Origin: a virus
Length of the DNA: 27,537 nucleotides
Strand: one strand, 5' to 3'
Virus record (IMG/VR): IMGVR_UViG_3300032287_000441
Coordinates: 1-27,537 of that record
Below the pieces are notes generated by a model. The model made no database searches. It saw only the letters and a program-made list of their open reading frames with translations, and was not told the origin of the DNA. Made by a program: the position numbers and the translations under genes. Positions 5,678 through 24,579 of this stretch are shown piece after piece; positions within the stretch are counted from its first letter, which is position 1, and the number at the start of each line of letters is the position of its first letter.

Positions 5678-6424
5678 ATGGCTGAAGAAACACAGACTGG
5701 CACCGTGGGTGATGTTCCTCCCCCGCTGACTTCTAGTGGGTCAAGTAATTCTTTGACTCCTTCTGTTCGGCTGCGTCCTCGTAAGGTGACCAGCGTTGCT
5801 GAGGGTGTTGTTGCTCCTACTGAAACCGAGTACACGCCTCAAGGCTATGTGGGACAAGGGCTTGTCAATAGTCAGGGTGTTTTGGCGCGTACCCAGTACG
5901 GCGAAGACGAAGCGTACAGCGAGATTGCAAAGTTTGGGACGCCAACAGAGCGCGGTATTTTTCTGAACCGTCTTGCAACTGTTGGCTTGTACGGGAACAG
6001 CAAACCGGGTTCGGGTTTCTCGAACAAGGATTTGTCTGCTATGCGGGAAGCGTTGCGATATGCGAATGCTGAGGGTGTGACTGTTGATGTTGCAGTTAAT
6101 TTGATGGCTGCTGATCCGAATGTGAAAACAAAGATTGCTGGTTCTGCGCGTTTAAGGACGACCCCGAAGCAGGATTTGAGGGCTGTGTTCAAGCAGGCCG
6201 CTGGGTCGGTGCTGGGTCGCCAGTTGTCTGATGCTGAGGTCGAAAAGTTTGTGCGGTCCTACAACCAGGCTGAAGTTGTTGAGGCTATGGGCGGGGCTGC
6301 TGCCCCGTCTGTTCAGACCGCCGCATTGCAGGCAGTTGAGGCTGCTTCTCCGGATGAGGCAGCGGCGATGGGTGCGTTGCAGTTGGCGAATATCATGGAT
6401 AAGAAGATAAAGGCGTTGGGCTGA
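5678..6424 (+). CDS. Putative internal virion protein
   Basis: A 248-residue protein starting two bases after the giant gene, with AGGA overlapping that gene's stop as ribosome site. Residues 1-45 are Pro/Ser/Thr-rich and disordered. Residues about 60-190 look mainly helical (FGTPTERGIFLNRLATVGLYG, then LSAMREALRYANAEGVTVD), and the C-terminus is Ala-rich helix (DEAAAMGALQLANIMDKKIKALG). No known catalytic motif is visible. It sits between the 1545- and 589-residue proteins with one-base overlaps, so I read it as part of the same ejected or core-protein set. The family is not recognised. Confidence 0.65.
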   Translation: MAEETQTGTVGDVPPPLTSSGSSNSLTPSVRLRPRKVTSVAEGVVAPTETEYTPQGYVGQGLVNSQGVLARTQYGEDEAYSEIAKFGTPTERGIFLNRLATVGLYGNSKPGSGFSNKDLSAMREALRYANAEGVTVDVAVNLMAADPNVKTKIAGSARLRTTPKQDLRAVFKQAAGSVLGRQLSDAEVEKFVRSYNQAEVVEAMGGAAAPSVQTAALQAVEAASPDEAAAMGALQLANIMDKKIKALG

Positions 6425-8193
6425 TGGCAGCAAAGAAAGACACTGATAAGACGAAGAAGAAGCCTGCTCGTAAGTCGCCGCCTAGTAGCACGTCAACGTC
6501 TTCGCCAACTACGTCTTCTACTGTCCCTCGTCCCCGTGAAACTGTTGGACCGTACACGAACACGTTCCCGCAGTCACCGCCTACCGGGACTGCTGTGCCT
6601 CGTCCAGCGTCAAATACTGTGCCTAATGTTCAGGGTGGTGTACTTGGCGGTGTAGGTCGTATCCCTGGCGGGTCGTATGTCCCGCAGACGCAAAGTGTTG
6701 CGCCGACGACTACGACCACTGTCGCGCCCACAACAACCACGACGATGGCTCCAACCACAACGGTTGCGCCAAAGCCGTCCACACCTGCTGCTACTCCGAG
6801 CCAACAGACAGCACCTGCAAACACAAGCAGTAAAACGCTTAGCAGGCTCATTGATTTGAAGCGTTTGATTGACGCAGCAACAGCGGAAGTCCAGGGGAAC
6901 CCGCAGTTCAGCAGCCGTGAAGAGTCCGCTATAAAGGACCGAAAGAAACTGGTTTCGGAATATCTGTCTGTTCTCTCGACGTACGTGTCTGAGGTTGGTG
7001 TCAATAAGTTTGATGCCAAGACAAAAACATTCTACAAGGATTTCACTGTCCCTAAGCAAATCACCGATTTGAAGAAAGTCGTTGATAATCCTAAGACTGC
7101 TGAGAACGGTGTCCAAAGCGTGTTGCCAGCTCTTGATGCTGTCAATGTGAACGCTGCTAATCGTCCGGATGTGTGGGTCGCCCCGTTCGGGAATGTTGTT
7201 GTGACAAAAGGGAAGGTTGGCCAGCCTGCTGCTGCGCCGAAAGAACCTGTTTCTACTCAGCCGACTGGGACAACGGGTGGAACCACTACGGCCCCGGTGT
7301 CGGGAACTGGTCGTAGGACTGTTGCTGGCGGCAAACTGGACAAGGCGAAAGTGCCGGTAAATTGGGAAGCGAAGTTCCGGGAGATGTTCCCGGCTAGTTC
7401 GTGGCTTCTTGATATTGACCCAGCGAAATATCCTGATCTTCGCAAGGTGTTGCAGGATGCGGTCAAGAATGAGGCGTGGAAAACCACAGAAAGTCAGACC
7501 AGGTTCTCAGCCCAGCTTGATGGCACCACATTCTTTAAGGAACTGAAGACGAACAACATTGTCCGGGACATCAAGACTGCTGTCGGTGACCTCGGTTTTG
7601 ACTCGGTTCCGTTCAACGCTTTCCTGACGACAGCCATGAACATGGGTTGGAAGGGCGACACACTCAAGCAGGAAGCGTACAAAGAAGCATTCCGAACCGA
7701 CGACAACGGTATGTATGTCAACCCGACTGCCGTTGAGCGAGTGAAGAAGTCCACTCCGTATCTGTCTGTTGCCAAGATTGGCACCGACTTTTTCTCGCAG
7801 GTATCAGACAAGACCATTGCTGGTGTTCTGACCGGCGGGATGACCCAGGATGACGTGGTGCGTCAGCAACGCGAACTGGCCAAGACCAAGTACGGGCATC
7901 TGTCAAATCTAATTGATCAGGGTTTTTCAATGGCTGACCTTGCCGCCCAGTTCCAGTCCCGCGCTGCGACTCTCCTGGAAGTTGACCCTGCCACGATTGA
8001 CATGAGCCAAGCCAAGTTTGAGACGGCCTACAACTATGGTGAGGAAGGCAAGAAGCGGATGATGACCACCGGGGAGTGGGACCGTCTTCTGCGTACTGAT
8101 AAACAGTTCAACTGGGATCAGACAGAGAACGCTAAGCAGGAAGCGCGGAAGTTGGCTGACACAATTTCGCAGGCATTTGGGAGGGTCATGTAA
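6424..8193 (+). CDS. Putative internal virion protein with Thr-rich linker
   Basis: A 589-residue protein; its ATG shares a base with the previous stop (TGATG). Residues 1-30 are Lys-rich (MAAKKDTDKTKKKPARK). Residues about 95-125 form a Thr/Pro/Ala linker built on TTTTTVAPTTTTT units. A helical segment follows at 135-190, then a second flexible Pro/Thr stretch near 270-300, then a C-terminal helical region of about 280 residues with GMTQDDVVRQQRELAKTKYG and FQSRAATLLEVDPATIDMS. The layout, folded parts joined by flexible linkers, suits a protein that is packaged and then unfolded through the portal, but this is inference. Thr-rich linkers of this type are common in actinobacterial secreted proteins. 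No enzyme motif seen. Confidence 0.65.
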   Translation: MAAKKDTDKTKKKPARKSPPSSTSTSSPTTSSTVPRPRETVGPYTNTFPQSPPTGTAVPRPASNTVPNVQGGVLGGVGRIPGGSYVPQTQSVAPTTTTTVAPTTTTTMAPTTTVAPKPSTPAATPSQQTAPANTSSKTLSRLIDLKRLIDAATAEVQGNPQFSSREESAIKDRKKLVSEYLSVLSTYVSEVGVNKFDAKTKTFYKDFTVPKQITDLKKVVDNPKTAENGVQSVLPALDAVNVNAANRPDVWVAPFGNVVVTKGKVGQPAAAPKEPVSTQPTGTTGGTTTAPVSGTGRRTVAGGKLDKAKVPVNWEAKFREMFPASSWLLDIDPAKYPDLRKVLQDAVKNEAWKTTESQTRFSAQLDGTTFFKELKTNNIVRDIKTAVGDLGFDSVPFNAFLTTAMNMGWKGDTLKQEAYKEAFRTDDNGMYVNPTAVERVKKSTPYLSVAKIGTDFFSQVSDKTIAGVLTGGMTQDDVVRQQRELAKTKYGHLSNLIDQGFSMADLAAQFQSRAATLLEVDPATIDMSQAKFETAYNYGEEGKKRMMTTGEWDRLLRTDKQFNWDQTENAKQEARKLADTISQAFGRVM

Positions 8194-11397: not shown

Positions 11398-11693
11398 AAC
11401 ACGCGGAAACGCATCCGTCGCTGGATGTGGAGGGTTGTTTCGGGTGTCGTGTTGCGGGGGTGTCGTTTGGTGCTAATTCGACGACGACCCGGGGTGCGCG
11501 GGTGGCTGAGACTGAACGCACTGCCCGGAACTGGGATAAGGATATGCCTGCCTATAAGCGGTTGAGGAAGAACGGTTTGCAGCCTCGCGGGATTGATGGG
11601 GCTGCTGCTGTTGAGGCTAAGGCTGAGACTGCTGCTCAGGTTGAGGGCCGGGTTGATGTTGACAAGCTGGTTGCTCGGGGTATTGCTGAGTGA
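11394..11693 (+). CDS. Hypothetical protein with His/Cys N-terminus
   Basis: A 99-residue protein overlapping the previous gene by ATGA. The start MKHAETHPSLDVEGCFGC carries two His and a CxxC pair (C15, C18) that could bind one metal ion. The middle is basic (TERTARNWDKDMPAYKRLRKNGLQPRG) and the end is an Ala/Glu/Val helix (VDVDKLVARGIAE). Short proteins with an H-P-x6-GCFGC start are familiar from actinobacterial phages, but no function is known to me. A four-base GTGA overlap leads into the glycosyltransferase, so the two are probably translated together. Confidence 0.7.
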   Translation: MKHAETHPSLDVEGCFGCRVAGVSFGANSTTTRGARVAETERTARNWDKDMPAYKRLRKNGLQPRGIDGAAAVEAKAETAAQVEGRVDVDKLVARGIAE

Positions 11694-12781
11694 ATGTTCA
11701 GTCGTGGACGGGTTACACCGATCCACTGTTTGGTTATGGGGCCATGTTTCATGGGTTCAAGGATGCGTTGCCTAAGACTGTGACGTTGGATCCGCAAGGG
11801 TCTGTCAATGTTCATATGTCGGTGCCAAACTTTTGTATGGGTTGGCTGGCTGGTCAGCACCGGGTGTCGTTCACGATGTGGGAAACAACGGTGTTGGACC
11901 CTGGGTTTGTTCGCTGGTTGGGGCAGTACGATCAGATTCTTGTTCCGTGTGAACAGAACGTTGAACTGTTCTCTCAGCATCATCAGGATGTGCGGTTGGT
12001 GCCGTTGGGGGTGGACCACAAGTTTTGGCGGCCCCAACCCCGGGTGGTGGACGGTCCGTTCAGGTTCCATGCTGGCGGGTCGCTGTGGCGCAGGAAGGGC
12101 CTAGATGTTGTTGTGAGGGCTTTTGAGGCTCTCAAATTGCCGGACGCGGTTTTGCATATCAAAGCGGCTCCACACGCCTCAGACACGCCGAAAGGGGGCT
12201 TTCCGCCGAATGTGGTGCTGCACCGTGAGTGGATGTCGTTGGAGGAGCAGCGGGACTGGTTCAACCAGGCGGATTGTTTCATTGCTGCGAGCCGGGGTGA
12301 GGGGTTCGGGTTGATGCCGTTGCAGGCGATTGCGTTGGGGGTGCCGACGATTGTGTCGGAGACGACGGGCCAGGTGCAGTTTGCGGATTGTGCGTGGGGT
12401 CGGGTGCCTGTGTCGAAGGTCCGGGCGGACACGATTGGGGAGTGGGATGAACCGGATCAGGGGGTGTTGGAGGAGTTGATGATGCTCGCCTACAAGAACC
12501 GTGACACGATTCGGGAGGAAGCTGAACTGAACATCCCGAAAACGGAACGGTTCGCGTGGAAGCACTCCACCAAGAAACTGTTGGCTGCTGTCCCCACGGG
12601 TGTCATGCTTGATCATGCTGACCGGGTGACCCCATCTGTAGAACTTTCTGTGCGGGTGCGGCGCAAGGTCAACGCCACCATCGGAAACGATACCTACAAA
12701 ATGGAACCTGGTTATAGTTATGTAATACCGGAACACGTCTTTGAGGTACTATCAGCCTCGAACGCATTGGAGACAGCATGA
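11690..12781 (+). CDS. GT4-type glycosyltransferase with C-terminal extension
   Basis: A 363-residue protein with GTG start at 11690 (GTGA overlap). Residues about 1-100 form a short N-terminal Rossmann-like half. LVPLGVDHKFWRP near 103-115 and the GGSLWRRKGLDVVVRAF segment near 128-144 are the donor-side landmarks of GT-B fold family 4. AASRGEGFGLMPLQAIALGVP near 197-217 is the E-x7-E-like nucleotide-sugar motif (EGFGLMPLQA, with the second Glu replaced by Gln). The last about 50 residues (SVRVRRKVNATIGNDTYKME, GYSYVIPEHVFEVL) are not part of a normal GT4 enzyme and look like a small appended beta module. It would transfer a sugar in the host cytoplasm; the target is unknown, with virion fibre or capsid proteins the natural candidates. 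Composition is very G-rich (28 G, 10 C in 12301-12360). Confidence 0.85.
   Translation: MNVQSWTGYTDPLFGYGAMFHGFKDALPKTVTLDPQGSVNVHMSVPNFCMGWLAGQHRVSFTMWETTVLDPGFVRWLGQYDQILVPCEQNVELFSQHHQDVRLVPLGVDHKFWRPQPRVVDGPFRFHAGGSLWRRKGLDVVVRAFEALKLPDAVLHIKAAPHASDTPKGGFPPNVVLHREWMSLEEQRDWFNQADCFIAASRGEGFGLMPLQAIALGVPTIVSETTGQVQFADCAWGRVPVSKVRADTIGEWDEPDQGVLEELMMLAYKNRDTIREEAELNIPKTERFAWKHSTKKLLAAVPTGVMLDHADRVTPSVELSVRVRRKVNATIGNDTYKMEPGYSYVIPEHVFEVLSASNALETA
12714..12727 (+). promoter_or_regulatory. 14-base repeated AT-rich element, copy 2
   Basis: Identical to 9179-9192 but inside the end of the glycosyltransferase gene, where it encodes YSYVI with the AT-rich codons AGT, GTA and ATA, unusual for this genome. 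It lies 51 bases before the next start at 12778, so it may be a promoter for the 12778-onward fibre operon. Confidence 0.4.
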
Positions 12782-13030: not shown

Positions 13031-14333
<1,303 letters not shown>

Positions 14334-14334
<1 letters not shown>

Positions 14335-16602: not shown

Positions 16603-17643
16603 ATGAAAATTGCTGTCTACGCAATCGCAAAAAACGAAGAACAGTTCGTTCAACGCTGGGCCGACAGCTGCGCTGAAGCCGACTACCGGTTCATCCTGGA
16701 CACCGGATCAACGGACGACACAGTGCCGCTGGCAATCGACAACGGTGTCGCCGTCAAGGTCCGCACGTTTGATCCGTGGCGATTCGATCTTGCACGGAAC
16801 ACTGCCCTTGCCCTGCTACCTACTGAGATCGATTACTGCATCGCCCTAGACATGGACGAAACACTCCAACCCGGCTGGAGACAAGCCCTTGAAGCCTTCC
16901 TCACCAACAACCCGACCGTCACCCGACCCCGCTACAAATACGTGTGGTCCTGGAACCCCGACGGAACAGAAGGCTTGGTGTACGGCGGAGACAAAATCCA
17001 TCACCGCGACAACTACACCTGGCGGCACCCCGTCCACGAAGTCCTCACCCCGTTAGACGGCGAAACCCAAGGATTTGTTCCCGGACTGGAAATCCACCAC
17101 CACCCCGACCCCGCCAAGTCACGCGCCCAATACCTGCCCCTGCTTGAATTGGCCGTCAAAGAAGACCCGAGCGATCCCCGTAACCAGTTCTATCTCGGAC
17201 GCGAATACTTCTACCAGGACGACAAACAAGCCGCCATCAAACATTTGGTGTCTGCCACCCTCCTCGGCAAATGGCCACCCGAGAAAGCAGCGGCGTACAG
17301 GATGCTGCACAAACTGTCCGGCAACCTGATTGACCTGTACCGCGCCCTCCTCCAAGACCCGTGCCGCCGGGAAACCCTCGTCGCTCTTGCCCAGCACTAT
17401 CACGACCATGCCCAGTGGCAGGCTTGCTACCAGTACGCCAACGCTGCACTGCTCATCACCGTGAAACCGTTGGATTATCTGTGTGAAGCCGACGCATGGG
17501 GATGGCTCCCATACGATTTGGCGGCTATCTCCAGCTGGCATTTGGGGTATCGGCATGAAGCCAAAACCTATGGTGAACAAGCAGCCCTGTTGAACCCTGG
17601 CGATGATCGGCTTCGGGCGAACCTTGCATGGTATGGGGTATAG
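16603..17643 (+). CDS. GT2-type glycosyltransferase with TPR-like tail
   Basis: A 346-residue protein with a strong GGAGGGG ribosome site. Residues 3-15 (IAVYAIAKNEEQF) and the LDTGSTDDT motif at about 32-40 bind the nucleotide sugar; the ALDMDE motif near 84-89 is the DxD metal-binding motif of GT-A fold family 2. HHRDNYTWRHPVHEVL near 132-147 and the EIHHHPDP motif near 160-167 complete the catalytic domain. From about 175 onward the sequence becomes helical with TPR-like repeats (EDPSDPRNQFYLGREYFYQD; LGYRHEAKTYGEQAALLNPG), which often hold a protein or peptide substrate. This architecture (GT2 plus TPR) is known in protein glycosylation contexts. The gene is unusually C-rich (27 C, 11 G in 17101-17160), opposite to the other glycosyltransferase, hinting at separate origin. 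Confidence 0.85.
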   Translation: MKIAVYAIAKNEEQFVQRWADSCAEADYRFILDTGSTDDTVPLAIDNGVAVKVRTFDPWRFDLARNTALALLPTEIDYCIALDMDETLQPGWRQALEAFLTNNPTVTRPRYKYVWSWNPDGTEGLVYGGDKIHHRDNYTWRHPVHEVLTPLDGETQGFVPGLEIHHHPDPAKSRAQYLPLLELAVKEDPSDPRNQFYLGREYFYQDDKQAAIKHLVSATLLGKWPPEKAAAYRMLHKLSGNLIDLYRALLQDPCRRETLVALAQHYHDHAQWQACYQYANAALLITVKPLDYLCEADAWGWLPYDLAAISSWHLGYRHEAKTYGEQAALLNPGDDRLRANLAWYGV

Positions 17644-21813: not shown

Positions 21814-22134
21814 ATGATGTCACTGAAGATCGCCAAGGACGTACTCGGGCGTATGATCGCCCTGTTCCTGGTGTCCTCGCTTGGCATCATCACCGGTTCG
21901 TCCGTGATCAACGCCATCAACCCGGACCAGTCAATGCCGTTGTGGTACGCCGCCGCACTTGCCGGTTTCACTGCTGTCGCCAACGTCATCACCAAGCTCG
22001 CGCAGGCATCTCTCGACGGGTCTTTGAGTGCTGCCGAGGTGGACGAGGCGTTCGGTGTGAAGTCCGAAACCCGTGCTGCTGTGAACGAAGCGAAGGGTAC
22101 AGCCGAAGCCCCCGTTGAAGACCCGGCTCTCTAG
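21814..22134 (+). CDS. Holin (putative)
   Basis: A 106-residue protein; ATG 21814 and ATG 21817 both follow GAGGAA at workable spacing. Two hydrophobic segments are visible: about 12-31 (MIALFLVSSLGIITGSSVIN) and about 41-63 (MPLWYAAALAGFTAVANVIT). A short polar turn separates them, and a charged C-terminus follows (SLDGSLSAAEVDEAFGVKSE). Two transmembrane segments, small size and a position opening a block that contains a peptidoglycan hydrolase support a holin that forms lesions in the cytoplasmic membrane. The SLDGSLSAAEVDEAFG tail resembles that of r1t-type actinobacterial phage holins. The next gene overlaps its end by 20 bases. Confidence 0.8.
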   Translation: MMSLKIAKDVLGRMIALFLVSSLGIITGSSVINAINPDQSMPLWYAAALAGFTAVANVITKLAQASLDGSLSAAEVDEAFGVKSETRAAVNEAKGTAEAPVEDPAL

Positions 22135-23140
22135 GGTCGCGTTACTTCTGATAGGGGCGGTCCTGCTGTTGGCAGGATCACAAGCACAGGCTGACACAAT
22201 CCGCGTCACCAACGTGACGGACTATTGGTTCACGTTCGAGGAACCAACCCAGTTCACTGCCCGGACCTACATGGTGGATGGCCACCCGTCAGACCCGCAT
22301 CTATGGTTCTACAACGCGGACAACCAGTTGATCACCGCCAACGATGACTGGTTCGGGTTGCAGTCGTACATTTCTGTGCAGGTTCAGCCTGGTATGTACC
22401 GTCTCCGGGCTGGTATTTGTTGCGGTGATCCGAACCGTTGGGGTGGTGGCAACGGCTGGAACATTGACTATGACTTGGAATCCAGCCAAACTTTGGTGGC
22501 TACTTCAGGATCATCCACGACAACAACATCAGTCCTCCCGTCAACCACAACAACGGAGACTCCAACCACCACGACAAGCACGACAACATCTACGACCACC
22601 ACAACAACAACGACAACAGTGCCACCGACAACGACAACACTGCCAGCAACGACCACAACTGTTGAACCGTCCACGACTGTCGTGACCACCACAACTTCAA
22701 CGGTGCCGCCCACGACTGTCGTTCAAACCACCACGACATCTTCAACTTCCACCACCACATCTTCTACCTCCACAACGACAACCGTTGCACAAACTACTAC
22801 GACTGTTCCAATTCCGCCGACAGTCACCCCGGAACAAGCCACCGCCCTTGCCACCAATCCCGAAGTCCTGGCAACCGTCACCGCTGAACAAGCCACCGAA
22901 ATCTTTGATGCCCTCGATGTGGACACCCTGACCGATGACCAGCTGGTGGAACTGGTGGCCGCAGTCCAAGACGCACCCCCCACCGTTCGGGCCGCGTTCG
23001 AGGAAGAAGTAGACATCTTCTCCGGGGCAACCGACACCTACGTCCCGCTCGGTTCCACGGTCCCTGTGTCCACCCGTCGCGCCCTGATTGTCATCACCAC
23101 CATCTCCGCTATCGCCGCTGTCGCGGTGCGACGCAAGTGA
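22115..23140 (+). CDS. Secreted surface protein with Thr-rich stalk and C-terminal membrane anchor
   Basis: A 341-residue protein from TTG 22115, chosen because the frame then begins with MKTRLSRV, a perfect signal-peptide n-region, followed by a hydrophobic core and a likely cut after GSQAQA (residue 26). Residues about 27-125 form a beta domain resembling pre-peptidase C-terminal folds (TDYWFTFEEPTQFTART; DPHLWFYNADNQLITANDDW). Residues about 130-233 are almost only Thr, Ser, Val and Pro, a rigid stalk likely to be glycosylated. Residues 239-300 are acidic helices (EQATEIFDALDVDTLTDDQL). A final hydrophobic segment at about 323-338 with RRK behind it anchors the C-terminus in the membrane. 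The phage therefore places a stalked protein on the infected cell. Role unknown: receptor masking, superinfection exclusion or help in lysis are options. The start lacks a near Shine-Dalgarno sequence and overlaps the holin. Confidence 0.8.
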   Translation: MKTRLSRVALLLIGAVLLLAGSQAQADTIRVTNVTDYWFTFEEPTQFTARTYMVDGHPSDPHLWFYNADNQLITANDDWFGLQSYISVQVQPGMYRLRAGICCGDPNRWGGGNGWNIDYDLESSQTLVATSGSSTTTTSVLPSTTTTETPTTTTSTTTSTTTTTTTTTVPPTTTTLPATTTTVEPSTTVVTTTTSTVPPTTVVQTTTTSSTSTTTSSTSTTTTVAQTTTTVPIPPTVTPEQATALATNPEVLATVTAEQATEIFDALDVDTLTDDQLVELVAAVQDAPPTVRAAFEEEVDIFSGATDTYVPLGSTVPVSTRRALIVITTISAIAAVAVRRK

Positions 23141-23152: not shown

Positions 23153-23317
23153 GTGAAGAAGTACCTGACCGCCCTCTACGCCCTCCTCATGTGGGCTTCA
23201 GGCACCGGGTTTATCCTCATCACGCTGTCCGGCGAAACCCTCAACAAAGCCCTCGTACTGTCCGGTATTACCTTGTTTGTGATGCTTGTGGCGTTGGCGT
23301 TCGGCCTGGAGGAATAA
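23153..23317 (+). CDS. Small membrane protein, two segments (54 aa)
   Basis: GTG 23153 to TAA 23317. The product, MKKYLTALYALLMWASGTGF, ILITLSGETLNKALVLSGIT, LFVMLVALAFGLEE, has two hydrophobic stretches (about 4-24 and 33-51) joined by a short GETLNK turn. There is no Shine-Dalgarno sequence, but TAATCT lies six bases upstream, compatible with leaderless translation. Between the holin region and the endolysin, it may be a second holin, an antiholin or another lysis-timing protein; the choice cannot be made from sequence. The next gene begins two bases later, with this gene's GGAGGAA end serving as ribosome site. Confidence 0.7.
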   Translation: MKKYLTALYALLMWASGTGFILITLSGETLNKALVLSGITLFVMLVALAFGLEE

Positions 23318-23319
23318 CC

Positions 23320-23706
23320 GTGGGCGACTGGGATGCTGATCCGCAACGCGAGGCATACCAGCGGGCAATGGGCGACTACATCGAATTCGCCAAAATCGTG
23401 CAACACTACGACAAGACGGCACGACCCGCCCATGACGACATTGACTTTGAGGCTGGCGACCTGACCCAACTGGACGGTCAAGAACTTGACATGGACGGGA
23501 ACCCCGTCATCCAACTGTCAATCCTGTTCATCGCTATCGCAGACGCAATAGAAGATTTCGGGTCATGGGACGACATCCCGGACGACTACGAATTCACCGA
23601 CGAGGACTACCCCGAAGACGCTAAAACAGTCCTGTTTTTTGATGACTATGATGAGTACGCTAAGCACAAGAAGCGGTGCCGCCGAAAGCCAAAGGACAAC
23701 GAATGA
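23320..23706 (+). CDS. Very acidic protein with basic tail (128 aa)
   Basis: Starts at GTG 23320, eight bases after GGAGG (23308-23312); an upstream in-frame ATG at 23191 would run through the 54-residue gene and is unlikely. Of 128 residues, 35 are Asp or Glu, grouped in the second half (SWDDIPDDYEFTDEDYPEDA, FFDDYDEY), followed by a basic end (KHKKRCRRKPKDNE). A hydrophobic strand or helix (VIQLSILFIAIADAIEDFG) is probably buried. The family is not recognised. Acidic phage proteins can act as DNA mimics against host enzymes or as binding partners of basic proteins, but the place in the lysis block argues for neither. The stop overlaps the endolysin ATG (ATGA). Confidence 0.7.
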   Translation: MGDWDADPQREAYQRAMGDYIEFAKIVQHYDKTARPAHDDIDFEAGDLTQLDGQELDMDGNPVIQLSILFIAIADAIEDFGSWDDIPDDYEFTDEDYPEDAKTVLFFDDYDEYAKHKKRCRRKPKDNE

Positions 23707-24227
23707 GCAAGTACACCGGGTTTGACAAGGTTGCCACAGCAAAGCTGCCTGCTGTGGAACGGTTCGTGGTTCTGTGCGGTCGCCGTTGGGGTTTCAAGAA
23801 CCTGGGGACACTGAACGTGCGTCTGATGCGATCAGCTCCGAAGGGTATGACTGTTGATTCGCCTGGTGCTGAGAAGTGGATGAGCGTCCACGGCACGGGC
23901 AGGGCTGTTGACCTGGGCTTCTCGTACGATCGTCAGGGTATTGACGCAGCGAAGCAGGCAATCGCATGGCTGACCTCGCCTGAGGTTGTCAAGGCTTTGG
24001 ACATTGAGGAAGTACACGATTACTCCGCCGTCTCCAACCCGACTGGCACCGCCAAGAAGTGGGGTAGGGGCTGGAGAATCGGGCGCGGATGGAAGGAATG
24101 GTCTGAATCGGATAACGGTGGAACGCCGATGGGTCGCTGGATCCATGTAGAGGTCGGGCCGGACACCGCACACCTAGACCAAGATGCGTTCGAAGCCAAG
24201 TGGCGCGCACTGCCGAAGCCTGCGTGA
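23703..24227 (+). CDS. Endolysin, M15-like zinc peptidase
   Basis: Starts at ATG 23703 with ATGA overlap; the upstream alternative at 23676 is inside the previous gene. The 174-residue protein shows SVHGTGRAVDLGF (H63, D70), the SxHxxGxAxD zinc site of peptidase family M15. It ends the fold with GRWIHVEVG (H148, third ligand). Between them lies DIEEVHDYS (about 100-108). M15 phage enzymes cut D-Ala-D-Ala or L-Ala-D-Glu bonds in peptidoglycan. The catalytic Glu three residues before the last His in many members is here R145, so another Glu (E150 or E102/E103) would have to serve, as in subfamilies with a WxHxE end. No separate cell-wall-binding domain and no signal peptide, so export would depend on the holin. 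Confidence 0.8.
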   Translation: MSKYTGFDKVATAKLPAVERFVVLCGRRWGFKNLGTLNVRLMRSAPKGMTVDSPGAEKWMSVHGTGRAVDLGFSYDRQGIDAAKQAIAWLTSPEVVKALDIEEVHDYSAVSNPTGTAKKWGRGWRIGRGWKEWSESDNGGTPMGRWIHVEVGPDTAHLDQDAFEAKWRALPKPA

Positions 24228-24328
24228 AGTATGCAGCCGTGGCGTTGGGGTTTCTTTGTGGCATCTGCGCTTCTGTATCTGCTTTTCTTTGTCTCGTTTA
24301 TAGCGAAGTGAAAAGGATCGAAAAATGA
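24224..24328 (+). CDS. Tiny single-pass membrane protein (34 aa)
   Basis: GTG 24224 overlaps the endolysin stop (GTGA) and its own TGA overlaps the next ATG (ATGA), so it is tightly tied to both. Product: MKYAAVALGFLCGICASVSA, then FLCLVYSEVKRIEK. One hydrophobic segment at about 4-26 with three Cys (12, 15 and 23), then a short charged tail. Size and place after the endolysin fit a lysis accessory such as an antiholin-like or spanin-like peptide. A true spanin would not be needed in a Gram-positive-type envelope. Double coupling makes it likely to be real. Confidence 0.65.
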   Translation: MKYAAVALGFLCGICASVSAFLCLVYSEVKRIEK

Positions 24329-24579
24329 ATCTTGCACAGTGGATCATCACAGCTGGTGGCGTTGTGACAGCATTGGCTGCGATGGTGCAGTTCGTTGTTC
24401 GTCCGGTGGTGAAGTGGGCAACACGGATTGAGAAGGCCGTCACCCTCGTCGAAATGAATATGTTTAACAACGGTGGTGCATCGTTGCGTGACGCGATTGA
24501 CCGCATTGAATCACGTCTTGAAAACCTCGAAAAGAAATCTCAAAGTTCTACGGTTCGAAAGAAAAGTACAACGAAATAA
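24325..24579 (+). CDS. Membrane-anchored coiled-coil protein, lysis region
   Basis: An 84-residue protein, ATG 24325 with ATGA overlap. One hydrophobic segment at about 3-26 (LAQWIITAGGVVTALAAMVQ) is followed by a basic hinge (RPVVKWATRIEK). Next is a segment containing MFNNGGASLRDAIDRIESRL, and then a coiled-coil helix and a Ser/Lys-rich tail. The NGG-x-SLRDA-x-DRIE pattern is familiar from small membrane proteins near lysis genes of actinobacterial phages, as far as I recall; some are annotated as holins. It is the third or fourth membrane protein in this block, so it may be the second holin component rather than the pore itself. Confidence 0.7.
   Translation: MNLAQWIITAGGVVTALAAMVQFVVRPVVKWATRIEKAVTLVEMNMFNNGGASLRDAIDRIESRLENLEKKSQSSTVRKKSTTK

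Follow-up and report, generated by a model that had tools for sequence, protein, structure and literature searches.

A predicted stalked surface protein and its neighbours

The window analysed here is the whole 27,537-nucleotide stretch of viral DNA deposited in IMG/VR as IMGVR_UViG_3300032287_000441 (positions 1 to 27,537). The region around its stalk gene comprises the following genes and features.

21814..22134, +: holin-like protein with two hydrophobic segments; in most relatives with both genes, it is encoded 5' of the stalk gene
22115..23140, +: stalk gene, TTG start, 341 residues, product predicted to be exported and membrane-anchored, with 67 homologues of the head and at least 556 of the anchor
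22115..22192, +: signal peptide (residues 1-26) with an A-x-A site, AQA-D, from hydropathy; A-x-A-like site in relatives
22193..22486, +: head domain with the PPC/collagen-binding-domain fold, from AF2 model, Foldseek and alignment
22487..22834, +: Thr/Ser/Pro/Val stalk (about residues 125-240), single-coding here and double-coding in relatives
22835..23080, +: conserved C-terminal domain (IFDALDVDTLTDDQ...FEEEVDIFSGATDTYVPLGSTVPVSTRR), from alignment, on at least 556 viral contigs
23081..23137, +: short hydrophobic anchor, its tail RRK positively charged, from hydropathy, in a pattern kept family-wide
23153..23317, +: small two-TM protein of 54 residues, present beside the stalk gene more constantly than any other neighbour
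23320..23706, +: gene for an acidic protein, standing separately, with GTG start and Shine-Dalgarno GGAGG; its homologue in relatives is nested in the stalk gene
23703..24227, +: probable endolysin, M15-like motifs seen by eye (HGTGRAVDLG, RWIHVEV)
24325..24579, +: small membrane protein adjoining the lysis genes, from hydropathy, with a weak Phage_holin_6_1 hit (E 0.018) and conserved order

The signal peptide of the stalk protein consists of an n-region KTRLSR, an h-region LSRVALLLIGAVLLLAG (17-residue Kyte-Doolittle mean 2.28) and a c-region AQA-D, and each of the 64 family members checked has an A-x-A-like site ahead of its head. For the ensuing head (residues 27-124), of which the sequence-only reading had asked for a structure prediction, AlphaFold returns a high-confidence model of a beta domain with eight strands (pLDDT 91.3, pTM 0.84). 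Foldseek analysis against the PDB reports hits with 5sv5 (TMq 0.70, E 1.4e-3), 1nqj_A (0.69) and 3afg (0.66). The head thus has a beta-sandwich fold in common with PPC and collagen-binding domains (5sv5; ColG CBD, 1nqj; TMq about 0.7), although it differs from them by its low identity (11-16%), the absence of a Pfam match and its probable role as a displayed domain rather than an enzyme accessory. Indeed, the stalk protein of the window matches neither the Pfam PPC profile at gathering score nor Pfam PA14 (PF07691), and Pfam, PHROGs, NCBIfam, INPHARED and the PDB searched by sequence return no named family at threshold; the head has no match among INPHARED phage records. The stalk (residues 126-240) is 89% T/S/P/V, 63 of its 115 residues being Thr. 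At the C-terminus, a hydrophobic stretch of ~16 residues (ALIVITTISAIAAVAV, mean 2.16) is preceded by RR and followed by RRK, a pattern that recurs across the family. Since this stretch is short for a membrane helix and bears Arg on both sides, membrane anchoring is likely, yet uncertain. Direct reading of the sequence reveals no LPXTG motif before this hydrophobic segment.

The stalk gene shares 20 bases with the upstream holin-like gene. Its TTG start is supported by relatives, in which the first codon after the in-frame stop is TTG (L002, L003, L006, L007, L055) or GTG (L013). This start and this overlap had been proposed in the sequence-only reading, as had the succession of signal peptide, beta domain, Thr/Ser/Pro/Val stalk and C-terminal anchor with positive tail, and the analysis bears all of them out. 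Sequence and conservation across the family give good support to export, stalk and membrane anchor of the predicted product.

The same reading placed the gene between holin and endolysin genes, which holds in that a two-TM gene lies upstream and M15-like motifs downstream, whereas the holin and endolysin assignments themselves remain weak by profile. The 21814-22134 product has a weak hit with phrog_443 (holin, E 0.025) and a stronger one with phrog_26427 (E 6e-22), whose "nuclease" label is doubtful given the two hydrophobic segments. The 23703-24227 product matches no Pfam or PHROG entry at threshold, and Pfam analysis of the corresponding neighbour elsewhere reports a weak hit with Peptidase_M15_4 in L013 (E 0.093) and none in L119. 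Elsewhere in the window, a collagen-like protein with GPTGPTGAT repeats over ~230 residues is encoded among the virion genes (13378-14334), two glycosyltransferase genes lie amid the structural genes (11690-12781, Glyco_trans_1_4; 16603-17643, Glycos_transf_2 with a TPR-like tail), and 6424-8193 encodes another product that has short Thr-rich repeats in its N-terminal part (SVAPTTTTTVAPTTTTTMAPTTTVAP) and is devoid of a signal peptide by eye.

Exchangeable heads, conserved linkage and possible function

Homologues of the head were found on 67 viral contigs and homologues of the C-terminal region on at least 556, which puts the protein well outside the range of chance. Among the best 80 anchor loci, 44 possess a PPC-like head, while the others with a complete N-terminus carry either PA14-type heads or heads of a third type. 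The PA14 Pfam profile scores above cut-off in three heads tested, including those of L113 (PF07691, 8e-7) and L093 (1.6e-5), and below it in a fourth, divergent one. The third type (L163, L160, L172 and similar; LGEWTYSQSC...HGPDQGGC...DTCCAPGHLTISNLSLW) has no Pfam match and shares an adjacent Cys-Cys pair with the PPC-type head. The anchor type of the window is also present in the PA14-headed L113, L115 and L116, and other PA14-type heads (L089-L095, L100) are followed by a different anchor (VGIGPIxxTLTxTExQRRTVVAAAIVQIT). With PA14 heads on two anchor types, recombination of heads and anchors is independent. The genomic neighbourhood is more constant: within the flanks of the best 80 anchor loci, a homologue of the 54-residue two-TM gene is found in 74 and the holin-like gene in 49. 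Where the head is of the third type, the holin-like gene follows the stalk gene instead of preceding it. Constant neighbours despite a changing order suggest a shared function, most simply lysis and release.

Captured host sequence had been suggested as the source of the stalk, from an actinobacterium, and a homology search of host genomes had been proposed. Hundreds of viral contigs carry the family, and in the scan of the genome collection the sole close relative lies on a phage contig (L119) binned into an Acidimicrobiaceae MAG, with one further, weak match in a Proteobacteria MAG, which leaves the capture unsupported. The host of the phage is probably actinobacterial and Acidimicrobiia-like, judging from this one binned contig.

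The stalk protein would be exported by the Sec pathway and held by its short C-terminal hydrophobic segment, a topology read from the sequence, with an exchangeable beta-sandwich head on a flexible stalk of ~100 residues that could cross the cell wall. Together with the small two-TM and holin-like proteins, it may form a lysis or release cassette in which the head binds the wall or a surface polymer. The interchangeable PPC-like, PA14 and third-type heads fit the binding of variable surface polymers, and the head might have some target besides wall polymers. For the stalk protein we tentatively favour participation in lysis or release, for which linkage is the argument, at somewhat under an even chance.

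Alternatively, the displayed head might mask a receptor glycan, on the cell or on debris, from sister phages or progeny, and thus serve superinfection exclusion or prevent readsorption. The surface-display anatomy would suit such a role, as would the three exchangeable head types, which are expected if the target varies between hosts; the literature on phage PA14 domains and superinfection exclusion yielded a loosely related report, in which the secreted variable PA14 cargo of another phage is speculated to act in this manner (PMC7468147). However, the stalk gene is tightly linked to the two-TM and holin-like genes, unlike a freely moving moron, and its lysis-gene neighbourhood suggests late expression, late for exclusion. 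This explanation is possible and, on balance, rather unlikely.

Two known lysis proteins invite comparison with the proposed lysis or release component. LysZ of Corynebacterium phages is a single-TM lysis-cassette protein of 177 residues, proposed to adopt an N-in/C-out topology and to act on envelope glycans (PMC13056207). Compared with LysZ as it is described there, the stalk protein is longer (341 residues), with a cleavable-type signal peptide, a C-terminal anchor (N-out/C-in) and a long T/S/P stalk, and so departs from that description in both size and topology. Likewise, the N-terminal lipobox cysteine that characterizes spanins, whether u-spanin or o-spanin, is absent from the stalk protein, the signal peptide of which ends in AQA-D without Cys.

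An acidic gene nested in the stalk of relatives

The 23320-23706 product is strongly acidic, bears no export signal and yields a poor structural model (pLDDT 60), and the libraries searched contain no relative outside its own family. Homologues of its gene (41-46% identity, E 1e-13 to 1e-17) were identified inside the stalk gene itself, in another frame, in L013, L048, L049, L054, L055, L063 and L065-L067. A scan for the acidic family reports 52 loci, 40 of which (two of them cut by contig ends) are wholly nested in the stalk gene, in its -1 frame and over the T/S/P stalk, and encode proteins of about 116-161 residues. The nested arrangement is also found in L119. Separate copies are present in the window, in its near twin L087 and in the L001-L003/L006/L007 group, while L070 and L071 possess the acidic gene and no stalk frame. 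In the window, stops break the nested frame of the stalk, which contains no TANNNT-N6-RTG. The 22 contigs with a stalk gene devoid of a nested gene, many of them fragments, returned zero acidic-protein matches, as compared with seven of eight records in a control run, the eighth being a non-nested record. As the stalk is kept in some contigs without the acidic gene and the acidic gene in others without the stalk, the two products can act independently.

An open nested frame carries no weight by itself. Each -1-frame codon takes its third base from the second position of a stalk codon, and a -1-frame stop would need A or G at that position; codons for T, P, V and A and TCN serine codons never provide it, and an open frame rich in D/N/H/Y is expected in any such stalk. 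The distribution of substitutions is more telling. Over stalk codon positions 1/2/3, it amounts to 25/40/36% in the overlap. The corresponding values are 25/18/57 and 20/16/64% for the parts of these genes that flank it, and 25/14/61% for control stalks devoid of a nested gene. The shift is plainest in close pairs: L109 and L110 show 0/7/0 differences by position within the overlap, as compared with 20/12/49 within the N-terminal part. The omega value of the nested loci is 0.55 for the acidic frame (binomial p 7e-6) and 0.84 for the stalk, whereas the controls give 2.86 for the virtual frame and 0.32 for the stalk. Changes silent in the acidic frame and not in the stalk relate to the reverse as 92:88 in nested loci and 21:149 in controls (Fisher p 2e-15); the nested comparison comprises nine sister pairs with each locus used once, three of them from one close group (L072-L081), and its diverged pairs carry alignment noise. 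The nested loci share kinship, so that neither these nine pairs nor the 15 upstream sequences considered below are fully independent. The nested frame in relatives is under purifying selection.

Upstream of the nested start, TANNNT lies at exactly 6 nt in 15/15 distinct sequences (below 85% identity to one another) and at spacings of 0-5 or 7-10 in 0/15. The background of TANNNT-N6 at ATGs is 2.0% on the plus strand, nested ones included, and 0.45% on the minus strand, and the nested frame of non-nested stalk genes displays TANNNT-N6-RTG in 0/58 cases. The nested start reads ATGG or GTGG, and the stalk frame hence reads TGG, a lone tryptophan. Leaderless genes, which are frequent in Actinobacteria, are recognized by a TANNNT element ~12 bp ahead of their start (PMC3160421, PMC3898074), and all 15 nested upstreams fit this sequence definition (PMC3160421). 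In the separate copy of the window, GGAGG precedes the GTG in place of TANNNT. The motif TANNNT-N6-ATG was also observed at other small genes (L072:3420, L109:6037, L110:6121), which suggests leaderless promoters elsewhere in these related phages.

Alternatively, ribosomes initiating internally on the stalk mRNA might produce the nested protein, TANNNT being incidental or a by-product of the in-frame TAG stop found just upstream of the nested start in most lineages. This TAG was considered as the key element and rejected, since L105, L109 and L110 lack it and keep TANNNT, which is universal. The invariant spacing of TANNNT and the lack of a clear Shine-Dalgarno sequence at nested starts also speak against internal initiation, which we regard as improbable. 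Most likely, the nested gene would be expressed as a leaderless mRNA from a TANNNT promoter inside the stalk coding sequence, probably by the host polymerase and possibly before the lysis operon.

Proposed birth and escape, and comparison with known nested genes

The tree of a linked exonuclease, midpoint-rooted and with several open forks, groups the window clade in a nine-row set with the nested L089, L090, L109 and L113 (97/97) and places L070 as sister to the nested L013 (99/96). The separate copy of L070 retains a stalk-type upstream sequence, TACCAT-N6-ATG. With separate-copy and stalk-less lineages lying inside nested lineages, the acidic gene most likely arose in the stalk and then escaped twice; owing to the midpoint rooting and open forks, we infer this order rather than read it directly from the tree. 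In the window lineage, the gene would have become separate and Shine-Dalgarno-led, two genes downstream of the stalk gene, and L070/L071 would have lost the stalk gene while retaining the acidic one, with a start of the embedded type.

The opposite order, in which the acidic gene was originally separate and became covered by an extension of the stalk frame, draws on that same rooting, on the open forks and on the extension route proposed for embedded spanins (PMC6139136). It would require repeated independent nestings in the same frame, at the same start position and with the same promoter spacing, while the separate copies fall inside nested clades and that of L070 has its stalk-type upstream, and is distinctly improbable. 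That the nested frames are no genes, their similarity reflecting stalk homology and composition in an always open, D/N/H/Y-rich frame, is extremely improbable and in our view already refuted: the code does explain the openness and control stalks do show N/H/D-rich frames, but homologues exist as separate genes outside any stalk, the acidic gene is retained where the stalk gene is lost, constraint has moved to the nested frame and TANNNT-N6-RTG is present in 15/15 versus 0/58 (four points on which a chance opening is also rejected), and the 22 non-nested contigs have zero matches versus 7/8 control records.

The reading that we favour with fair confidence is that of a modular surface protein, most likely of the lysis cassette, the stalk of which hosts an acidic gene, probably leaderless, in relatives, this gene being separate in the window. 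A T/S/P/V/A stalk is always stop-free in the -1 frame whatever codons are used, assuming TCN serines, and relatives maintain the acidic gene there. The Thr/Ser/Pro stalk may thus be viewed as a gene nursery, in which a gene was born in a stop-free frame with its own leaderless promoter, spread in the nested state to many phage lineages and escaped by relocation in the window and by stalk loss; we lean towards this broader view.

The nested loci resemble the embedded Rz/Rz1 spanins, where a lysis-cassette gene is also wholly embedded out of frame and separated versions exist elsewhere (PMC6139136). Unlike Rz/Rz1, they involve no lipoprotein, the nested product has no export signal and the probable hosts are not Gram-negative. 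Moreover, in the spanin survey embedded members never share a family with overlapped or separated ones (PMC6139136), whereas nested and separate members occur here within one acidic-protein family. Another parallel is the hidden HNH gene (ShiLan domain) described in 2025, which lies out of frame in an actinophage methylase gene and for which leaderless initiation was proposed (PMC11855218); it is, however, an inserted homing element of a recognisable family, while here the stalk protein itself supplies the hosting segment and the -10-like element is conserved. As in overprinted viral genes (PMC8227390), the new frame is hosted in the disordered region of an older protein, and the second frame, by which overprinting is recognized, is under purifying selection in relatives; in the stalk of the window it is broken by stops and has no start signal. 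In contrast with the overprinted genes reviewed there, the present case concerns a tailed dsDNA phage with a low-complexity ancestral frame, and it displays both escape from the overlap and host-frame loss. The system differs from known embedded genes by its low-complexity stalk host, its embedded -10-like element and the coexistence of three states in one family.

As a rule, a nested gene is observed in a single state. The present family displays the nested, separate and host-gene-lost states, so that the birth and escape of an overprinted gene become traceable in sequence and testable. The -10-like element within coding DNA offers a concrete explanation, open to testing, of the way in which nested genes could be expressed. 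Genes of this kind will escape gene-calling programs that do not allow overlaps. As for the stalk family itself, its presence on at least 556 viral contigs makes it an abundant, unnamed component of the lysis region of these environmental phages.
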